From assembly GCF_003581425.1 (NCBI RefSeq), contig NZ_QXTG01000001.1:1488001-1552000 (forward strand): a stretch of DNA of 64,000 nucleotides, given 5' to 3'. Shown here piece by piece: positions 4,154-11,506 of the stretch. The notes beneath the pieces were generated by a model. The model did no database searches. It saw only the letters and a program-made list of their open reading frames with translations, and was not told the DNA's origin. Origin of the DNA: Amnibacterium setariae (GTDB lineage: Bacteria > Actinomycetota > Actinomycetes > Actinomycetales > Microbacteriaceae). The position numbers and the translations under genes are program-made. Each line of letters begins with the position of its first letter. Position 1 is the first letter of the stretch.

Positions 4154-4933
4154 TCAGCGGGGGGCCGCCCCGATCGCGACCGTGCCGTCGATCTCGTCGT
4201 CGGCCACGACGGAGGCGGCGAGCCCGGCGCCCTCGAGCAGCAGCGCCGTCCAGGCCGCCTGGGTCCGGCCGGTCTCGATCAGCACGGCGCCGCCCGGCGC
4301 GAGCCACTCCCGCACGCCGGCCGCGACCCGGCGGTGCACGTCGAGCCCGTCGTCGCCGCCGTCGAGGGCGACGTGCGGCTCGAACTCCCGCGCCTCCCGA
4401 GGCATGTCGGCGATGCGCCCCGTCGGCACGTACGGGGCATTGACCGCGACGACGTCGAACCGGCCGCGGAGGGCGTCGGGCAGCGCGGCGAACAGGTCGC
4501 CCGCGTGCACGGTCCCGCCGACGCCCGCCACCGTCCGCGCCGCGTTGGCGACCGCGGCGGGCTCGACGTCGGCCGCGTGCAGCTCGATGCCCGGGACCCG
4601 CGTCGCGACGGCGAGGCCGACCGCGCCGGTGCCGCAGCACAGGTCGAGCACGACGGCGCCGGGTCGGGCGAGCCGCGCCGCCTCGTGGGCGAGCAGCTCG
4701 GTGCGCCGCCGCGGCACGAAGACGCCGGGGTCGACCGGCACGCGCAGCCCGTCGAACGCGGCCCAGCCGAGCAGCGGCTCGAGGGGCTCGCCCGCCCGTC
4801 GGCGCTCGACGAGCCGGTCCAGCGCGTCGCCCCAGGCGGCCTCGGCCAGCAGCGCGGCCTCCTCCTCGGCGAAGACGATCCCCGCGGAGCGGAGCCGGGC
4901 GGCGAGGCCGTCGAGGTCGTCCGGGTCCGTCAC
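4154..4933 (-). CDS. PrmC/HemK-like N5-glutamine methyltransferase, divergent
   Basis: A 259-aa class I SAM-dependent methyltransferase. The SAM-binding motif [13 protein letters not shown] is near residues 96-108. The catalytic motif reads NAPY (165-168) instead of the NPPY of PrmC proper, which marks the PrmC-related subgroup seen in actinobacteria rather than the release-factor methylase itself. The GTG start at 4933 overlaps the TGA of the upstream reductase (GTGA), so translation is probably coupled to the fatty acyl-CoA reductase. Target unknown. Confidence 0.82.
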
Positions 4934-7221
4934 CGCGCGATCAGGTCGGCGCGCGAGACGCCGCCGCGGCGCCAGTCGAGGATCGGCCAGCGCCGCTTCA
5001 GCGCCGCCCGCGCGAGCCGCGCGTCCGGGTTCACCGCCGTCGCCTCGCCCACGAGCGAGAGCCACGGGAGGTCCGCGACGCTGTCGCCGTACGCGTAGGA
5101 GGCGCCCAGGTCGAACCCGCCGCGCGCCGCGTACTGCGCGAGCCAGGCGCCGCGCGCCTCGTCGACGAGCGGCGGCGCGCCGAGGTAGCCCGTGAGCACG
5201 CCGTCGTCCTCGTGCATCGTCCCCGCGACGACCTCGTCGAACAGGGCCGCGAGCGGCTCGGCGAGCACGCCGATCGACCCGGTCACCAGCACCGTGCGGT
5301 GCCCCGCGGCGCGGTGCTCCCGCACCCGCTGCAGGGCCGCCGCGCTCGTGTGGGCGAGCAGCAGGTCGGTGTAGCCGCCGCGCACGGCGGACTCGAGCCG
5401 CTCGGCCGGCATGCCCGCGTAGCGGCGGAGGAAGGTGCGCAGGAACTCGCCGCGGTCGCGCCGCTCGGCGGCGAGGTACGCGGGCAGGCGCGTGATGATC
5501 GAGCCGGCCTCCGCGGCCGCCGCGGCCTCGCCGCCCTGCGAGCGCCTCACCCACAGCAGCTGCTGGACGATGTTCGAGTCGACGACGGTGCCCTCGAGGT
5601 CGAAGACCGCGAGCACGTCGGTGCGCTGCGGCAGCGGCTTCGGCGCCGCAGGCCCGCTGCTCCGGTCGCCGCCCCGGCCGCGCGAGAACACCCGCATGAG
5701 CTGGGTGATCGCGGGCACGTGGACGCGCTGGAGGTAGTCGCGCCAGTCGATGCGGGTGACGTCGAAGCCCTCGTCGGGCCGGTCCGCCGGGATGCGGGCG
5801 CCGAGCGCGCGGGCGTTCGCGTCGTCGAAGATCAGCTCGGTGCCGACGTAGGCGCGGTAGAGGTCCGACAGCTGCCGGAGGCTGTGCACGTCGCGCTCGC
5901 GCCGCCCCATGGTGCGCTGCCACTCGCGCAGGCGCGGGGTCGACGGCAGCCGGTCCAGGGTCGAGTTCGCCGCGCCGACGAGGACCTCCGCCCGGCGGAT
6001 CGCGCGCTCCACGCGGCGGTCGCCCGGGAACTGCCAGGTCGGCACCCGCTCCGCGCCAGGGGTGTCCGGGATCGGGTTCGCGGTGAAGTACTCGTGCACG
6101 TTGCGGTACATGCCGTGGAACGGCAGCGGGTTGCTCGCCCCCGACGCGACGTGGAGGTACCGGGGCTCCGCGACGGGCGGCGGGGTCGCCGCGGCGGCGA
6201 GGATCGCGTTCACCACGAAGTCGACCGGGATGATGTCGAGCACCGAGTCGGGCACGCCCGGGAAGTCCTCGAGCTGCCCGCGGCCGAAGGCGATGATCAA
6301 CGGGTCGGCGACCTTGAAGCCGTCGATCCAGCCGGGGAACGGGTGCTCGAGCGCGCTCTCGATGACGCTCGGGCGCACGATCGACAGGCGGTGCTCCGCC
6401 CCCCACAGCTCCTCGGCGGCGCGTTCGGCGAGCGCCTTGGTCAGCGTGTAGACGTCGGTCCAGCCGAGGCTCTGGGCGCGGGCGCGGCCGGCGGTCACGA
6501 GGCGGCGCTTGACCCAGTCGACGCGGGCGGCCTCCGCGGCGATCGCGACCGCGCGGGGCCCCTCCTTGCCGTGCTCGGCGCGGGCGCGCAGCATCAGGCC
6601 GCGCAGCACGCCGGGCTCGCGGCTGCGCAGCTCCACGCGCTGGCGGGCCGCCGCGGCGGCGTCGGCCTCGACGCGCCAGTCGGCGTCGTGGTCGAGCCGG
6701 GCCTCGGGCAGCACGCCCTTGCGGAGGCCGCCGACGTAGCAGGTGGACACGTGCACGACGTGCGGGTCGGCGCCGGACTCCCGGATGGCCGTGTAGAGGT
6801 TCCTCGCGCCGCCCGTGTTCGTCGCGAACGCCTCGTCGATTGGCGGGTCGAACGAGACGGTCGAGGCGCTGTGCAGCACGTGCGTGAGGTCGCCGGGCAG
6901 CGGCGGCACGGCGTCGAGCGAGCCCTCGACCGCGGTGACGCGCTCGGCGAAGATCCGCGCGGCCTCGTCGCGGCCGACCGCCTCCCGCCAGGCCTTGAAC
7001 ACCGGCTTCGACAGCAGCTTGCGCACGCGGTCGTCGGCGGACTGGCCGGTCTTGCCGCGCACGAGCAGCGAGACCCGGGTGTCGGGGTGGGAGACGAGGA
7101 GGCGCTCGAGCACGGCCTGGCCGACGAAGCCGGTGCCGCCGGTGAGCAGCACGTGCCCGGAGAGTCGTTCCACGGGGGCGATGGAGGGAGCGCCGCTGTC
7201 GGCACCAGCGGGGGCAGTCAT
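4930..7221 (-). CDS. Fatty acyl-CoA reductase fused to HAD-IB (SerB-like) phosphatase domain
   Basis: A 763-aa two-domain protein. Residues about 20-500 are a fatty acyl-CoA reductase of the extended SDR type: TGGTGFVGQ nucleotide-binding loop (about 26-34), catalytic Y258-xxx-K262, and a following FAR C-terminal domain. It would reduce acyl-CoA to fatty alcohol (or aldehyde) with NADPH. Residues about 530-740 are a HAD-IB domain with motif I FDLEGT (D541), TGS motif II and GDSVAD (D713). Motif I has Glu where most phosphatases have the second Asp, and no clear motif III Lys is seen. The ATG at 7221 is 21 bp from the divergent SDR start; GTG at 7173 is an alternative start. Confidence 0.85.
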
Positions 7222-7242
7222 CGGGTCCGTATCGTATGCGGA
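7222..7242. promoter_or_regulatory. 21-bp divergent promoter with overlapping -10 elements
   Basis: The whole gap between the FAR and SDR starts is 21 bp. It holds TATCGT at 7230-7235 on the plus strand, 7 nt before the SDR ATG, and TACGAT at 7236-7231 on the minus strand, 9 nt before the FAR ATG. Both fit the actinobacterial TANNNT -10. If real, both transcripts are leaderless or nearly so and the two -10 boxes share DNA, so only one polymerase could open at a time. Confidence 0.5.
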
Positions 7243-8022
7243 ATGGCGACCGCGCTCGTGACCGGTGCGACGAGCGGCATCGGCGCGGCTTTCGCGCGGG
7301 CCCTCGCCGCCCGCGGATGGGACCTCGTCCTCGTCGCCCGCGACGAGGACCGGCTCGAGGAGGAGGCGGCGCGGTACCGCGCCGCCGGCCGCGGGGCGGA
7401 GGTGCTCCGGGCCGACCTCACCGATCGCGGGGACGTCGACCGCGTGGCCGCGCGGCTCGAGGACTCCGCCGCGCCCGTCGACCTCCTCGTCAACAACGCC
7501 GGCTTCTCGGTGCGCGCGTCGCTGCTGTCCACGGACCAGGCCGCCCACGACCGCGCGTTCGAGGTCATGGTGCGGGCCGTGCAGGTGCTCTCCGGCGCCG
7601 CGGGGCGGGCGATGACTGCGCGCGGCCGGGGCCGCATCGTGAACGTGGGGTCGACCGCGGGCCGGATCACGATGGGCGCCTACAGCGCGATCAAGGCCTG
7701 GGTGACCGTCTACACGGAGGGGCTCGCGAACGAGCTCGCGGGCACCGGCGTGACCGCCATGGCGCTCGAGCCGGGCTGGGTGCGCACGGAGTTCCATGCC
7801 CGGGCGGGCATCAGCGGCTCGTCGATGCCGGACGCCCTCTGGCTCGACGCCGACGACCTCGTCGCCGCGGCCCTCCGCGACCTCTTGCGGGGCCGCGTGG
7901 TCTCGACGCCGAGCGCGCGGTACAAGGCGCTCATGTTCGTGGCGCGGCATGCGCCGCGATCCGGCATCCGCAGGGTCTCCAAGGCGCTGAGCGACCGCCG
8001 CCGCAGTAGCCTTCCCGAGTGA
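7243..8022 (+). CDS. Short-chain dehydrogenase/reductase (candidate acyl/alkyl-DHAP or ketone reductase)
   Basis: A 259-aa classical SDR. TGATSGIG (NADP-binding loop), NNAG, S137 and Y147-SAI-K151 are all present, so it should be active. The Ser-to-Tyr distance is slightly shorter than usual. It is the first gene of a three-gene operon with the acyltransferase (GTGA overlap) and the alkyl-DHAP-synthase homologue. In the ether-lipid pathway an SDR reduces 1-alkyl- or 1-acyl-DHAP to the glycerol-3-phosphate form; that role is inferred from context, and the family alone does not give the substrate. Confidence 0.85.
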   Translation: MATALVTGATSGIGAAFARALAARGWDLVLVARDEDRLEEEAARYRAAGRGAEVLRADLTDRGDVDRVAARLEDSAAPVDLLVNNAGFSVRASLLSTDQAAHDRAFEVMVRAVQVLSGAAGRAMTARGRGRIVNVGSTAGRITMGAYSAIKAWVTVYTEGLANELAGTGVTAMALEPGWVRTEFHARAGISGSSMPDALWLDADDLVAAALRDLLRGRVVSTPSARYKALMFVARHAPRSGIRRVSKALSDRRRSSLPE

Positions 8023-8771
8023 CGACGCGGGTGACGACCAAGCACGCCCCCGGCTCCGAACCACCCGTCGTGCGATTCGACCGGTACACCTCGAAGCCGA
8101 TGGCGGCCGCGCGCTGGGTGGCGCAGCGGGTGCTGCTCGGGGGCGTCATCCGTTCGGTCGTGTCGGTGCGGATCTTCGGCCGGGAACGGCTGAGCGACCT
8201 CCGCGGCGCCTTCGTCGTCGTCGCGAACCACACGAGCCACCTCGACGCGCCCCTCGTCTTCACGACCCTCCCGCGCCGCCTCGCCCGCTACCTCTCCGCC
8301 GGCGCCGCGGCCGACTACTTCTTCGACGTGAAGTGGCGCAAGGGCCTCACCGCGCTCTTCTTCAACGCGTTCCCCATCCACCGCGCCGGGCTGAACCGTC
8401 CCGCGTCGGAGGCGCGCGCCCTGCTCGAGCGCGGCGTGCCGCTGCTCGTCTTCCCCGAGGGGACGAGGAGCCGGACCGGCCGCATCGGCACCTTCAAGGT
8501 CGGCGCCGCGGCGCTCGCGAACCAGTCGAAGGTGCCCGTCCTGCCGGTCGCCATCATCGGCGCGCACGCCGCGCACCCGCGCGGCTCGAAGTGGCCGAAG
8601 GCCGGTCGCCCCCCGGTCGCCGTCGTGTTCGGCGACCCGGTGTTCGCGCACGCGGGGGAGACGCCGACCGAGTACATGCGCCGCGTCCGCGGCGAGGTGC
8701 AGCGCCTGCACGACGAGCACGCCCACGCGGTCCTCTCCACGGGCCGCATCGCCTCCGGAGGACCCCGATGA
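8019..8771 (+). CDS. PlsC-like 1-acyl-glycerol-phosphate / DHAP acyltransferase
   Basis: A 250-aa membrane-associated acyltransferase. The HX4D motif is NHTSHLD (H71, D76) and the phosphate-binding motif is FPEGTRSRTG (from F145); both are intact. The family transfers acyl chains to lysophosphatidate or related polyol phosphates. The GTG start overlaps the SDR stop and the TGA overlaps the next ATG, so it is translated inside the operon. Next to an alkyl-DHAP-synthase homologue, its likely acceptor is either DHAP (forming acyl-DHAP for exchange) or 1-alkyl-glycerol-3-phosphate. Confidence 0.88.
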   Translation: MTTRVTTKHAPGSEPPVVRFDRYTSKPMAAARWVAQRVLLGGVIRSVVSVRIFGRERLSDLRGAFVVVANHTSHLDAPLVFTTLPRRLARYLSAGAAADYFFDVKWRKGLTALFFNAFPIHRAGLNRPASEARALLERGVPLLVFPEGTRSRTGRIGTFKVGAAALANQSKVPVLPVAIIGAHAAHPRGSKWPKAGRPPVAVVFGDPVFAHAGETPTEYMRRVRGEVQRLHDEHAHAVLSTGRIASGGPR

Positions 8772-10492
8772 CCGATCTCGTCACCCCGACCGTCGCCGAC
8801 CGCGAGGACGCGGCGGCCGTGCGGGAGAACCCCGTGGCGCACATGAAGTGGTGGGGCTGGGGCGTGCCCGGCGTCGCCTTCCACCACGAGGACAAGCCGA
8901 ACTTCGCGCCCTTCGTGCTGAAGGCCGTCGGCCTCGACCTGCACGCGGCCTCGCCGCTCGAGCAGCCCGACTTCGGCGCCCTCGACGTGCCGGCCTCGAT
9001 CGCCGACGGGGCGCTCCGCGCCGCGATGGCCGCCGCGGCGGGCGCCGAGCGCGTCGCCGACGACGACCTCGACCGCGTCGTGCACACCTACGGCAAGAGC
9101 ATCCGCGACCTGATCAAGGTCCGCGCCGGGCGTCTGCCGCGCGTGCCCGACCTCGTCGTCTACCCGGCCGACGAGGCCGCCGTGCAGGCGGTCGTCGACG
9201 CGGTCGTGCAGCACGACGCGGTGCTCATCCCGTTCGGCGGCGGCAGCAACATCGCCGGTTCGCTCGAGCCGATCCCGGGGGAGACCCGGCCCGTGGTCTC
9301 GGTCGACCTCGGCCTGCTCGACCGCGTGCTCGAGATCGACGAGCTCTCCGGGCTCGCCCGCGTGCAGGCGGGCGTGCTCGGCCCGTCGCTCGAGGCGCAG
9401 CTGAACGCCCGCGGCTGGACGATCGGGCACTTCCCCGACTCCTTCACCCACTCGAGCCTCGGCGGCTGGATCGCGACCCGGTCGTCCGGCATGCAGTCGG
9501 ACAAGTACGGCGACATCGCGGACATCACGCGGGGCATGCGCGTCGCCCGCCCCGGCGGCCTGCTCGACCTGCGCCCGACCCCCTCTGCCTCCACGGGGCC
9601 GAGCGTGCGGGAGATGATCCTCGGCAGCGAGGGCCGGCTCGGCGTGATCACCGAGGCGACCGTGCAGGTGCACCGGGTGCCGGCGAAGCGCGTCATCCAC
9701 GCCTACTTCTTCCCGAACTGGCGGGCCGGCTCGAAGGCGATGCGCGAGATCGCCGAGAGCGACGTGCACCCCGCGATCACCCGCGTCTCCGACGGCCGCG
9801 AGACGGGCTTCTCGCTCTCGACGTCGAAGGAGTCGAAGGGCTTCGGCGCGTTCGCGCAGAAGGCGCTGTTCGCGTTCCTCGAGCGCCGCGGCTGGGACCT
9901 GGACGAGATGTGCCTCTCGTTCATCGGCTACGAGGGGGAGCCGGGGCACGTCGCGCGGCAGCGCAAGGCGGTCGAGAAGATCGTCAAGCGCAACCGCGGC
10001 ATCAGCGTGGGCACCGGCCCCGGCGTGCTCTACGACCAGAAGAAGTTCGACACCCCGTACCTGCGCGACTTCCTGCTCGACCGCGGCACCGCGGGCGACG
10101 TGTCGGAGACGAGCGTGCCGTGGGCCGGGCTGGACCGGATGCACGACGGCGTGATCGCCGCGGCGGAGGCGGCCTACGAGTCGCTCGGCCGCACGGGCTG
10201 GATCATGAGCCACCTGTCGCACTCGTACCACTCGGGCGCGTGCCTGTACTTCACGTTCGCCTTCGTCATGGGCGACGACCCGGAGGCCGAGTACGACGTC
10301 GTGAAGCAGGCGATCCAGCAGGCGTTCATCGACCTCGGCGGCGTCCCCAGCCACCACCACGGCATCGGCGTCGAGCACGCCGCGTGGCTGCCCGACGTGC
10401 TGTCCGAGCAGGGCATCGGCGTGCTCGAGGGCCTCTTCACCGCGACGGACCCGGGCCGGAACCTCAACCCGGCGAAGATCACCGCGAACTAG
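8768..10492 (+). CDS. Alkyl-dihydroxyacetonephosphate synthase homologue (FAD-binding)
   Basis: A 574-aa FAD-binding protein of the VAO/AGPS fold. It matches the peroxisomal enzyme at motif level: KWWGWG near the N-terminus, FGGGSN (about 156-161), DSFTHSSLGGW, ATRSSGM, ILGSEGRLGVITEAT, Y487 in YHSGACLYF and the catalytic-type triad H529-H531 in SHHHGIG. That enzyme swaps the acyl chain of acyl-DHAP for a fatty alcohol, forming the ether bond. The ATG overlaps the acyltransferase stop (ATGA). With the fatty-alcohol-forming reductase divergently encoded, an ether-lipid role is the best reading; a broader FAD oxidase role cannot be excluded. Confidence 0.85.
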   Translation: MTDLVTPTVADREDAAAVRENPVAHMKWWGWGVPGVAFHHEDKPNFAPFVLKAVGLDLHAASPLEQPDFGALDVPASIADGALRAAMAAAAGAERVADDDLDRVVHTYGKSIRDLIKVRAGRLPRVPDLVVYPADEAAVQAVVDAVVQHDAVLIPFGGGSNIAGSLEPIPGETRPVVSVDLGLLDRVLEIDELSGLARVQAGVLGPSLEAQLNARGWTIGHFPDSFTHSSLGGWIATRSSGMQSDKYGDIADITRGMRVARPGGLLDLRPTPSASTGPSVREMILGSEGRLGVITEATVQVHRVPAKRVIHAYFFPNWRAGSKAMREIAESDVHPAITRVSDGRETGFSLSTSKESKGFGAFAQKALFAFLERRGWDLDEMCLSFIGYEGEPGHVARQRKAVEKIVKRNRGISVGTGPGVLYDQKKFDTPYLRDFLLDRGTAGDVSETSVPWAGLDRMHDGVIAAAEAAYESLGRTGWIMSHLSHSYHSGACLYFTFAFVMGDDPEAEYDVVKQAIQQAFIDLGGVPSHHHGIGVEHAAWLPDVLSEQGIGVLEGLFTATDPGRNLNPAKITAN

Positions 10493-10499
10493 CGCAAGC

Positions 10500-10553
10500 G
10501 GTGTTCACGGATGAGGGGATCCGGCCTGCCGGATCCCCTCATCCGTGAACACC
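10500..10553. terminator. 25-bp perfect palindrome, bidirectional terminator between converging genes
   Basis: The arms 10500-10524 and 10529-10553 are perfectly complementary with a 4-nt loop. The element starts 8 nt after the stop of the alkyl-DHAP synthase homologue and contains the stop codon of the opposing PrsW gene (10505-10507). There is no U-tract, as is common for actinobacterial terminators. Confidence 0.75.
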
Positions 10554-11506
10554 TGTCGCGCGGCGGCGTGCTGCGCGGACATCGCGCGGTCGCGGGGCCG
10601 GTGGTGGCGGACGATGCCGCGCAGCGTCAGGCCGCCGATGACCGAGATGACGCCGAGGCCGAGCACGTAGACGCCCGTCGTGATCTCGCCGACCTCGCCC
10701 CGCGTGCCCGGCCGGAGGGTGCCGGAGGAGAGCGCCGGCACGACGTTGCCGGTCGAGACGATGGCGATGATCGTGCTGATCCCGCCCATCGAGTCCCAGA
10801 GCCCGTGCAGCACGGCGACGAGCAGGTAGGCCAGCAGGACGCCGGCGGTGAAGCGGTAGCGCCGCCCGTCGCGGGAGGCGGCGAAGAGCGCGGCGCCGAG
10901 CACCGCGGTCCAGAGCACGTGCCCGAGCGGCGTGAGCACCGAGCGGGTGACCTCCGTCTGCAGCAGGCTGAGCAGGTCGATGCCGCCGTTGCCGAGGGCC
11001 GCGTTGAAGGCGTACCCGGCGGACTCGAACGCGGCGAAGCCCGCGCCGACCGTGGCGCCGAGCAGCGCGCCCTGCCGCGCCGTCTTCGGCACCAGGTGGC
11101 GCCCGATGACGACGAGCAGCACGCCCTTCACGAGCTCCTCGATGATCCCGACGAGCAGGAACCCGCCGAGGCCGCCGGAGGACAGCGGCGCCTCGAGCAC
11201 CGACGCCCCGAGCACCCCGAGCACGCCGCCGACGAAGAAGGCGAGCATCAGCGACGCGACGGGGACCGACGAGCTGATGCGCTCGGCGGCGAACAGCACG
11301 ACCGAGAACGGGACGAGGAAGCTGCCGAGCAGGATCAGCGTCGGGACGAGGTTCGCGTTGCTCGTCGCGATCGTGACGACGACCGTCACCAGCCAGAGCA
11401 GGGCGCCGGCGAGCAGCGACTTCCACCACCAGCCGTGCCGGTGCGTCCGGACCGGTTCGTCCGCGTGGAGGGGGGCGGTGGTGACGGCGGCGTCCGCGGT
11501 GCTCAC
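10505..11506 (-). CDS. PrsW-family intramembrane metalloprotease
   Basis: A 333-aa membrane protein with about eight or nine hydrophobic segments from residue 28 to 300. Family motifs are visible: EELVK (about 142-146), FAAFES and HGLWD, which carry the putative metal ligands. PrsW proteins cleave membrane substrates such as anti-sigma factors. The GTG start overlaps the MarR stop (GTGA), so the two are co-translated. The last 14 residues (VFTDEGIRQAGSPHP region) are encoded by the 10500-10553 palindrome and look like an add-on that is not part of the family. Confidence 0.85.
   Translation of the reverse strand: MSTADAAVTTAPLHADEPVRTHRHGWWWKSLLAGALLWLVTVVVTIATSNANLVPTLILLGSFLVPFSVVLFAAERISSSVPVASLMLAFFVGGVLGVLGASVLEAPLSSGGLGGFLLVGIIEELVKGVLLVVIGRHLVPKTARQGALLGATVGAGFAAFESAGYAFNAALGNGGIDLLSLLQTEVTRSVLTPLGHVLWTAVLGAALFAASRDGRRYRFTAGVLLAYLLVAVLHGLWDSMGGISTIIAIVSTGNVVPALSSGTLRPGTRGEVGEITTGVYVLGLGVISVIGGLTLRGIVRHHRPRDRAMSAQHAAARQVFTDEGIRQAGSPHP

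Follow-up and report, generated by a model that had tools for sequence, protein, structure and literature searches.

A conserved gene set for predicted ether-lipid synthesis in Amnibacterium setariae and related actinobacteria, with a candidate vinyl-ether desaturase pair

In peroxisomes, ether lipids are made by GNPAT, AGPS, FAR1 and DHRS7B/PexRAP, after which PEDS1 acts. In a review, bacterial plasmalogens are ascribed to anaerobes, together with some facultative anaerobes, that use PlsA/PlsR, and pls genes are reported there from several actinobacterial orders, Actinomycetales included (PMC9702350; statements taken here from published papers refer to excerpts of them). Myxobacteria, with CarF, are the studied aerobic case, and the Myxococcus xanthus genes MXAN_1676-1674 code for AGPS, a protein resembling fatty acyl-CoA reductase (FAR) fused to a GNPAT-like acyltransferase, and an NAD-dependent epimerase/dehydratase (PMC9131029). 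Furthermore, homologues of AGPS are known to occur widely in bacteria, the Actinobacteria among them (PMC11868695), and a link between FAR-type proteins and ether lipids has been drawn earlier (PMC11948995). The present analysis concerns a stretch of 64,000 nucleotides of contig NZ_QXTG01000001.1 of Amnibacterium setariae, hereafter called the window, which contains four adjacent genes coding for a FAR fused to a HAD domain (FAR-HAD), a short-chain dehydrogenase/reductase (SDR), a PlsC-type acyltransferase (PlsC), and an AGPS homologue. Together with a pair of proteins encoded elsewhere in the genome, FLP-A and FLP-B, these four proteins would form an ether-lipid pathway of the dihydroxyacetone phosphate (DHAP) route in an aerobic lineage, probably finished to plasmalogens by FLP-A/FLP-B, a reading to which a probability of about 0.6 is given.

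Gene content and conservation of the cluster

The gene for FAR-HAD (763 amino acids; positions 4930-7221, minus strand, ATG at 7221 and stop at 4930) is divergent from those for the SDR, a putative acyl/alkyl-DHAP reductase (259 amino acids; 7243-8022), PlsC, a putative DHAP or alkyl-glycerol-3-phosphate acyltransferase (250 amino acids; 8019-8771), and the AGPS homologue (P0003, 574 amino acids; 8768-10492), all three on the plus strand. Between the divergent start codons lie 21 bp (7222-7242), and the sequence reads GTGA at the 4-bp overlap of SDR and PlsC (8019-8022) and ATGA at that of PlsC and AGPS (8768-8771). A preliminary description of this DNA had reported the four genes and their overlaps; both were confirmed at these positions, and the domain matches agree. 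The AGPS homologue is 93% identical to AGPS of Amnibacterium kyonggiense DSM 24782, which places the genome near Amnibacterium, in the Microbacteriaceae.

On its homology, the product of 8768-10492 is an AGPS-family protein. Among solved structures, it scored 374 bits against the alkyl-DHAP synthase (ADPS) of Dictyostelium (2uuu) and 262 bits against guinea-pig ADPS (4bby), as compared with 65 bits for the next-best enzyme of the vanillyl-alcohol oxidase (VAO) family, a D-lactate dehydrogenase. It contains the motifs ATRSSGM, YHSGACLYF, and SHHHG. Residues R419, R515, Y578, and HHH of guinea-pig ADPS, to which we presume the roles usually given to them, correspond to R339, R433, Y494, and H529-531 of P0003 and are all present; the catalytic sites R419 and Y578 were located from the rows of mutant structures (His in 4bc7 and Phe in 4bca, respectively). 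All these residues are invariant in 14 aligned sequences, namely P0003 and 13 orthologues of 51-68% identity. An identity as lactate or glycolate oxidase was rejected on the scores above, so that the earlier view of the synthase homologue as AGPS-like stands.

The other three proteins adjoin AGPS in the window, as would be expected of members of a peroxisome-type pathway. FAR-HAD matches the Pfam domains NAD_binding_4 (148 bits) and HAD (109 bits), with a Sterile domain match of 22 bits that is under the cut-off of 35.4. Its best solved relative is 7eoz, named 'fatty acyl-CoA reductase' (177 bits, residues 14-524), and its C-terminal part matches solved HAD/phosphoserine-phosphatase chains. 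The HAD-IB domain covers about residues 537-750 (4972-5613, minus strand). Its motif I reads DLEGT in the window, with a glutamate in place of the usual second aspartate; in other loci of the collection (numbered with L), it reads DLEGT (L107, L148), DLERT (L087), or DLDGT (L057). The idea that FAR-HAD of family f12 is split by an internal TGA was rejected, the stop in L057, the only case read, being the gene's own end. The SDR shows the motifs TGATSGIG, NNAG, and S...YxxxK, and PlsC shows NHTSHLD and FPEGTRS together with a PF01553 match of 71.8 bits; both sets of motifs are presumed here to have their customary meaning. The top NCBIfam model for the SDR is mycolate reductase (152 bits, far below the cut-off of 380). 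PlsC and SDR are assigned at the level of the family only.

The cluster is conserved. A scan of the genome collection yielded 368 relatives, and in 72 of the best 80 of these 368, to which the counts out of 80 refer throughout, the four genes lie within about 8 kb. In a survey of the order, an AGPS match (E up to 1e-60) was found in 47 of 149 genomes, 35 of them (that of A. setariae included) with an orthologue of 51-70% identity and 12 with only a group of 34-38% identity. FAR, SDR, and PlsC are beside AGPS at 20 of the 34 other orthologue loci, and three of the remaining 14 are on contigs shorter than 8 kb; none of these genes was found near any of the 13 low-identity AGPS loci of the same order (L067-L079). 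All 35 genomes that have the AGPS orthologue also encode FAR-HAD, some of them at a separate site; it further occurs in seven of the 114 others, two of these seven having a divergent AGPS. With near full-length homology and an AGPS of 51-70% identity in 34 other genomes of the order, the gene set is beyond chance. The expectation that the genes stay together in relatives was borne out in many of them. The claim that such clustering is unusual for bacteria was not, because it is common in this lineage and the Myxococcus operon is comparable. Two loci (L081 and L152) come from metagenome-assembled genomes (MAGs) titled Acidobacteria, with a cluster AGPS 88% and 66% identical to that of the window; these titles are probably wrong bins or labels.

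A predicted di-iron protein and its ligand-poor homologue linked to the cluster

Most loci have about 1 kb of DNA between FAR-HAD and SDR, in which the gene for FLP-A is located (read in L107, L148, and L087), and the gene for its homologue FLP-B comes after FAR-HAD. Both occur at 66 of the 80 loci, all of which also have the four genes. The FLP-B gene shares the strand of FAR in 65 of these 66, with a median of 16 bp between the FAR-HAD stop and the FLP-B start (56 loci); eight Subtercola loci and L140 have it, likewise on that strand, at a further distance of 2.3-2.4 kb. In Subtercola vilae (L107:560-3030), this spacer of about 2.4 kb codes for a 512-amino-acid protein, apparently a lactate racemase of the LarA type, and also includes a further PlsC-like stretch. 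In A. setariae, FLP-A and FLP-B are encoded in tandem at contig positions 1484544-1486205 (L162:6544-8205), 9 bp apart and 6.7 kb left of FAR-HAD, and hence outside the window, which starts at 1488001. A survey of 299 genomes of the Microbacteriaceae gave 84 with AGPS (E up to 1e-150), 91 with FLP-B (E up to 1e-70), and 82 with both (Fisher p 2.5e-60, which takes no account of kinship). The two genomes with AGPS only are 85% and 77% complete. AGPS and FLP-B are on one contig in 80 of the 82 genomes, with a median gap of 4.9 kb. Six of the seven genomes listed for the window's genus, that of A. setariae included, have both, and one has neither.

FLP-B is predicted to be an acyl-ACP-desaturase-like protein of ferritin fold with a full set of di-iron ligands, and FLP-A a homologue without several of them. 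Indeed, E45, E77xxH80, E141, and E171xxH174 of FLP-B are at least 97% conserved in 74 fetched sequences and the A. setariae copy, and all six ligands are identical in 47 of 47 sequences of a cleaner set. We take this pattern of four carboxylates and two histidines to be that of the acyl-ACP desaturases. Similarly, 46 of 46 FLP-B sequences (set A4) match PF03405, and 44 also match rubrerythrin, at E up to 0.1. A structural model of FLP-B from L083 (pLDDT 88.4) had plant acyl-ACP desaturases, DesA2 of Mycobacterium tuberculosis, and R2lox as its top Foldseek matches, with a probability of 1.00 and TM-scores of about 0.5-0.6. FLP-A had no sequence match of note in Pfam, NCBIfam, or PDB in the copies tested; the model of the S. 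vilae protein (pLDDT 88.7) matched R2-type proteins in Foldseek (best E 0.058, probability 0.99). In 51 FLP-A sequences, E77 is replaced by K/R in 50, H80 by a hydrophobic residue in 51, and E171 by K/R in 48, and E45 is kept in 50, E141 in 43, and H174 in 40. The A. setariae FLP-A lacks all six ligands and is the sole one of the 51 without E45. FLP-A and FLP-B form separate clades in a midpoint-rooted tree. As they occur in pairs, they may be the two subunits of one enzyme, of which one would bind the metal and the other would be structural.

In the pathway proposed, every substrate and the order of the steps are predictions. FAR would, as expected of its family, convert acyl-CoA into the fatty alcohol for the ether bond, and PlsC would convert DHAP into acyl-DHAP. 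AGPS, judged by its family and active-site residues, would catalyze the alkyl-DHAP synthase reaction, in which the acyl group of acyl-DHAP is exchanged for the fatty alcohol to give alkyl-DHAP. The SDR would reduce the ketone of alkyl-DHAP to yield 1-alkyl-glycerol-3-phosphate, and ordinary enzymes would provide sn-2 acylation and the head group, so that a phospholipid or glycolipid is formed. The least secure part of the scheme concerns the HAD domain, which may take off a phosphate en route to alkyl-acyl-glycerol. Lastly, FLP-A/FLP-B, using O2, would introduce the 1' double bond, giving plasmalogens in most Microbacteriaceae carriers and in A. setariae. Alkyl-ether synthesis by the four genes is considered likely, and the chances that FLP-A/FLP-B is a vinyl-ether desaturase are put at about even.

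As to the surroundings of the cluster, the start of a gene on the minus strand (4154-4933), whose product we take to be a PrmC/HemK-like methyltransferase, overlaps the FAR-HAD stop. Among the 80 loci, this gene has that position only in L080-L083, the slot being held elsewhere usually by FLP-B, and therefore it is probably outside the pathway. Downstream of AGPS, a hairpin with perfect 25-bp arms, a 4-base loop, and no T run (10500-10553; -58.7 kcal/mol and z -11.5 for region 10488-10560) lies between convergent genes and is likely their shared transcription terminator. This hairpin escaped a simple terminator scan. A promoter scan of 4800-10700 found no sigma-70-like site.

Lipid reports from carriers and competing readings

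Acid methanolysis of vinyl ethers gives rise to dimethyl acetals (DMAs), whereas saturated alkyl ethers yield none. DMAs have been called indicative of plasmalogens (PMC7472656) and are reported from genera that carry the cluster. In Subtercola, described as an aerobic genus (PMC7472656), iso-16:0 DMA amounts to 17.0% in S. vilae, 13.3% in S. frigoramans, 11.9% in S. boreus, and 6.9% in S. lobariae, with 3.2%, 10.3%, 11.0%, and 9.7% of anteiso-15:0 DMA, respectively, and Agreia has up to 4% of iso-15:0 DMA (PMC5945732). Similarly, Frigoribacterium adelgis D8, grown in air, contains 17.0% of 14:0 2OH together with an anteiso-15:0 aldehyde/DMA, which was found earlier in Frigoribacterium faeni and is unreported in two other species of the genus in the excerpt concerned (PMC12823222). 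The cluster and both FLPs were retrieved from the very strain measured in the case of S. vilae (DB165), and from strains of S. boreus, S. lobariae, F. faeni, and Agreia pratensis; this comparison of genomes and phenotypes has cluster-carrying genera only on both sides. In Kineococcus rubinsiae, gas chromatography-mass spectrometry identified as anteiso-15:0 DMA (2.9%) a peak that the MIDI system calls '14:0 2-OH', and the authors found DMAs in this aerobe 'surprising' at first sight, citing Subtercola as a parallel (PMC7472656). Values for '2-OH 14:0' of 10.4% in S. boreus, 15.6% in S. vilae, 9.9% in S. frigoramans, and 17.0% in F. faeni (PMC9287328, PMC7033078) fit this identity of the Kineococcus peak. 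Frondihabitans is reported to lack DMAs but to have 14:0 2-OH among its major peaks (PMC5945732), a pattern that is ambiguous if the peak is misnamed. Six Curtobacterium strains have no 2-OH or DMA peaks listed in the excerpt seen (PMC12889094). A term search of the main text of the S. vilae genome paper retrieved no mention of dimethyl acetals, plasmalogens, or desaturases (PMC6518244).

Several observations weigh against an ether-lipid pathway that ends in plasmalogens. One or both FLPs are missing from 14 of the 80 loci, with FLP-A alone in two, on truncated contigs, and neither in 12, among which are L080-L082, near Amnibacterium. Outside the family the link is looser: in the order, FLP-B (scored at E up to 1e-30) is missing from 17 of the 35 genomes that have an AGPS orthologue and present in 18, and in nine of these 18 (seven of f12, G064, and G091) FLP-B is on another contig or far from AGPS. 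In addition, nine of the 91 FLP-B genomes of the Microbacteriaceae have FLP pairs without an AGPS orthologue, and the 16 kb fetched around FLP-A/FLP-B of G054, G021, and G189 (L163, L164, and L165) contain no FAR, SDR, or AGPS; G054 has a divergent AGPS elsewhere in its genome. Against PF03405, with a cut-off of 22.7 bits, FLP-B of A. setariae scored 23.5, that of L083 17.4, and that of L037 16.3 bits, no Foldseek match of the FLP models had an E-value under 0.001, and superposition on desaturases gave a root-mean-square deviation of about 7-9 Å. Phosphatase activity of the HAD domain is doubtful because motif I is DLEGT, not DLDGT. Loss of the AGPS homologue in M. xanthus made ether lipids only slightly lower (PMC9131029). 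Regarding the lipids themselves, the excerpts mention no DMA for Frigoribacterium endophyticum (PMC12823222), only traces of '14:0 2-OH' for Lacisediminihabitans profunda, and none for S. endophyticus (PMC9287328 / PMC7033078). The cluster is present in F. endophyticum (L153, a strain other than the one measured) and, with the FLPs, in a Lacisediminihabitans MAG (L097). Furthermore, DMAs could come from free aldehydes. The preliminary proposal of ether lipids in this aerobic actinobacterium was supported in part: its cluster-carrying relatives include aerobes reported to have the products expected of vinyl-ether lipids (PMC5945732, PMC12823222), and the completeness of the pathway is a prediction; for Amnibacterium itself, no lipid data were found in the open-licence literature.

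If saturated ether lipids were the only products, the four genes would lead to alkyl-acyl phospholipids or glycolipids and FLP-A/FLP-B would act otherwise, for example in the desaturation of acyl chains. The FLP pairs without the cluster and the 17 genomes of the order without FLP-B fit such a case, as does the resemblance of FLP-B to acyl-ACP desaturases, which act on acyl chains. It is unlikely nevertheless, with FLP-B accompanying AGPS in 82 of 84 Microbacteriaceae, mostly adjoining FAR-HAD, and with DMAs reported in carriers. Alternatively, the products might be fatty alcohols, wax-like compounds, or hydrocarbons, with the VAO enzyme joining the alcohol to another acceptor and FLP-B akin to an aldehyde-deformylating oxygenase. 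FAR-HAD does occur without an AGPS orthologue in the seven genomes mentioned above, and the aldehyde-deformylating protein 6d9f is among the Foldseek matches of FLP-B, but the retention of the AGPS active-site residues and the company of PlsC, SDR, and FAR in 72 of 80 loci make this improbable. A catabolic cluster in which the product of 8768-10492 acts as an ordinary FAD-linked D-2-hydroxy-acid oxidase is very improbable. The top NCBIfam model for this product is GlcD, at 113 bits under a cut-off of 568, and it matches PF02913 and PF01565, presumably common to the wider VAO superfamily; against this stand the ADPS scores, the catalytic residues, and one other VAO protein in the genome, encoded by a separate gene.

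Relation to known ether-lipid and desaturase systems

Proteins of the CarF/PEDS1 type (PF10520) were not found in the A. setariae genome (0/1) or in 16 carrier genomes (0/16, five of them Subtercola), in runs in which no control genome was positive. Across 396 genomes of the phylum, the same search was positive in 18 (17 from a single family), with the A. setariae genome (G000) not among the 18. The domain PF09989, which we take to be tied to PlsA, was absent from all 17 genomes searched, that of A. setariae included, the same search being positive in four of 14 controls. Both CarF/PEDS1 and PlsA-type proteins were therefore rejected as the source of the DMAs in the carriers searched, and any vinyl ethers here are unexplained by either known enzyme type. 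Tentatively, and with odds slightly below even, a third plasmalogen route may exist in aerobic actinobacteria, in which AGPS-made alkyl lipids are desaturated by a soluble di-iron FLP-B/FLP-A enzyme, independently of CarF/PEDS1 and PlsA/PlsR. Neither an actinobacterial AGPS cluster nor an FLP-type vinyl-ether desaturase was the subject of any paper found in the open-licence literature, and as far as that search tells, the conserved actinobacterial six-gene set with its FLP pair is new. The cluster is a candidate genetic basis for the DMA reports in Subtercola and Frigoribacterium and points to an undescribed type of desaturase. It also leads to the prediction that '14:0 2-OH' in routine fatty-acid tables of Microbacteriaceae is often a misnamed plasmalogen product. 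These claims lend themselves to testing in type strains that can be cultured.

The cluster shares with the peroxisomal pathway a FAR, an acyltransferase, an SDR, and an AGPS homologue in which the catalytic residues are kept; it differs in being a bacterial cluster, in the fusion of FAR to HAD, and in that PEDS1 was not found. In contrast to PEDS1, the candidate desaturase here would be a di-iron protein of the soluble type whose partner has lost ligands. The aerobic M. xanthus likewise has genes for AGPS, FAR, acyltransferase, and reductase in a cluster (MXAN_1676-1674), although FAR is fused to the acyltransferase there and to HAD here; moreover, M. xanthus depends mainly on ElbD and forms the vinyl ether by CarF (PMC9131029). 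The Myxococcus ElbD/ElbB operon also unites FAR-like, acyltransferase, and HAD-like parts in one pathway, but acyl-CoA synthetase and carrier-protein domains such as those of ElbD were not found here, and the excerpt concerned describes no AGPS domain for ElbD (PMC9131029). The PlsA/PlsR route would share vinyl-ether lipids as end product, whereas it reduces the diacyl lipid directly and belongs to anaerobes and some facultative anaerobes (PMC9702350). Finally, with the acyl-ACP desaturases (PF03405; the plant enzymes and DesA2) and R2lox, FLP-B has in common the ligand pattern E / ExxH / E / ExxH and a similar fold, but it differs from them in its low sequence similarity, in its linkage to ether-lipid genes, and in its pairing with a ligand-poor homologue at 66 loci and in the A. 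setariae genome.

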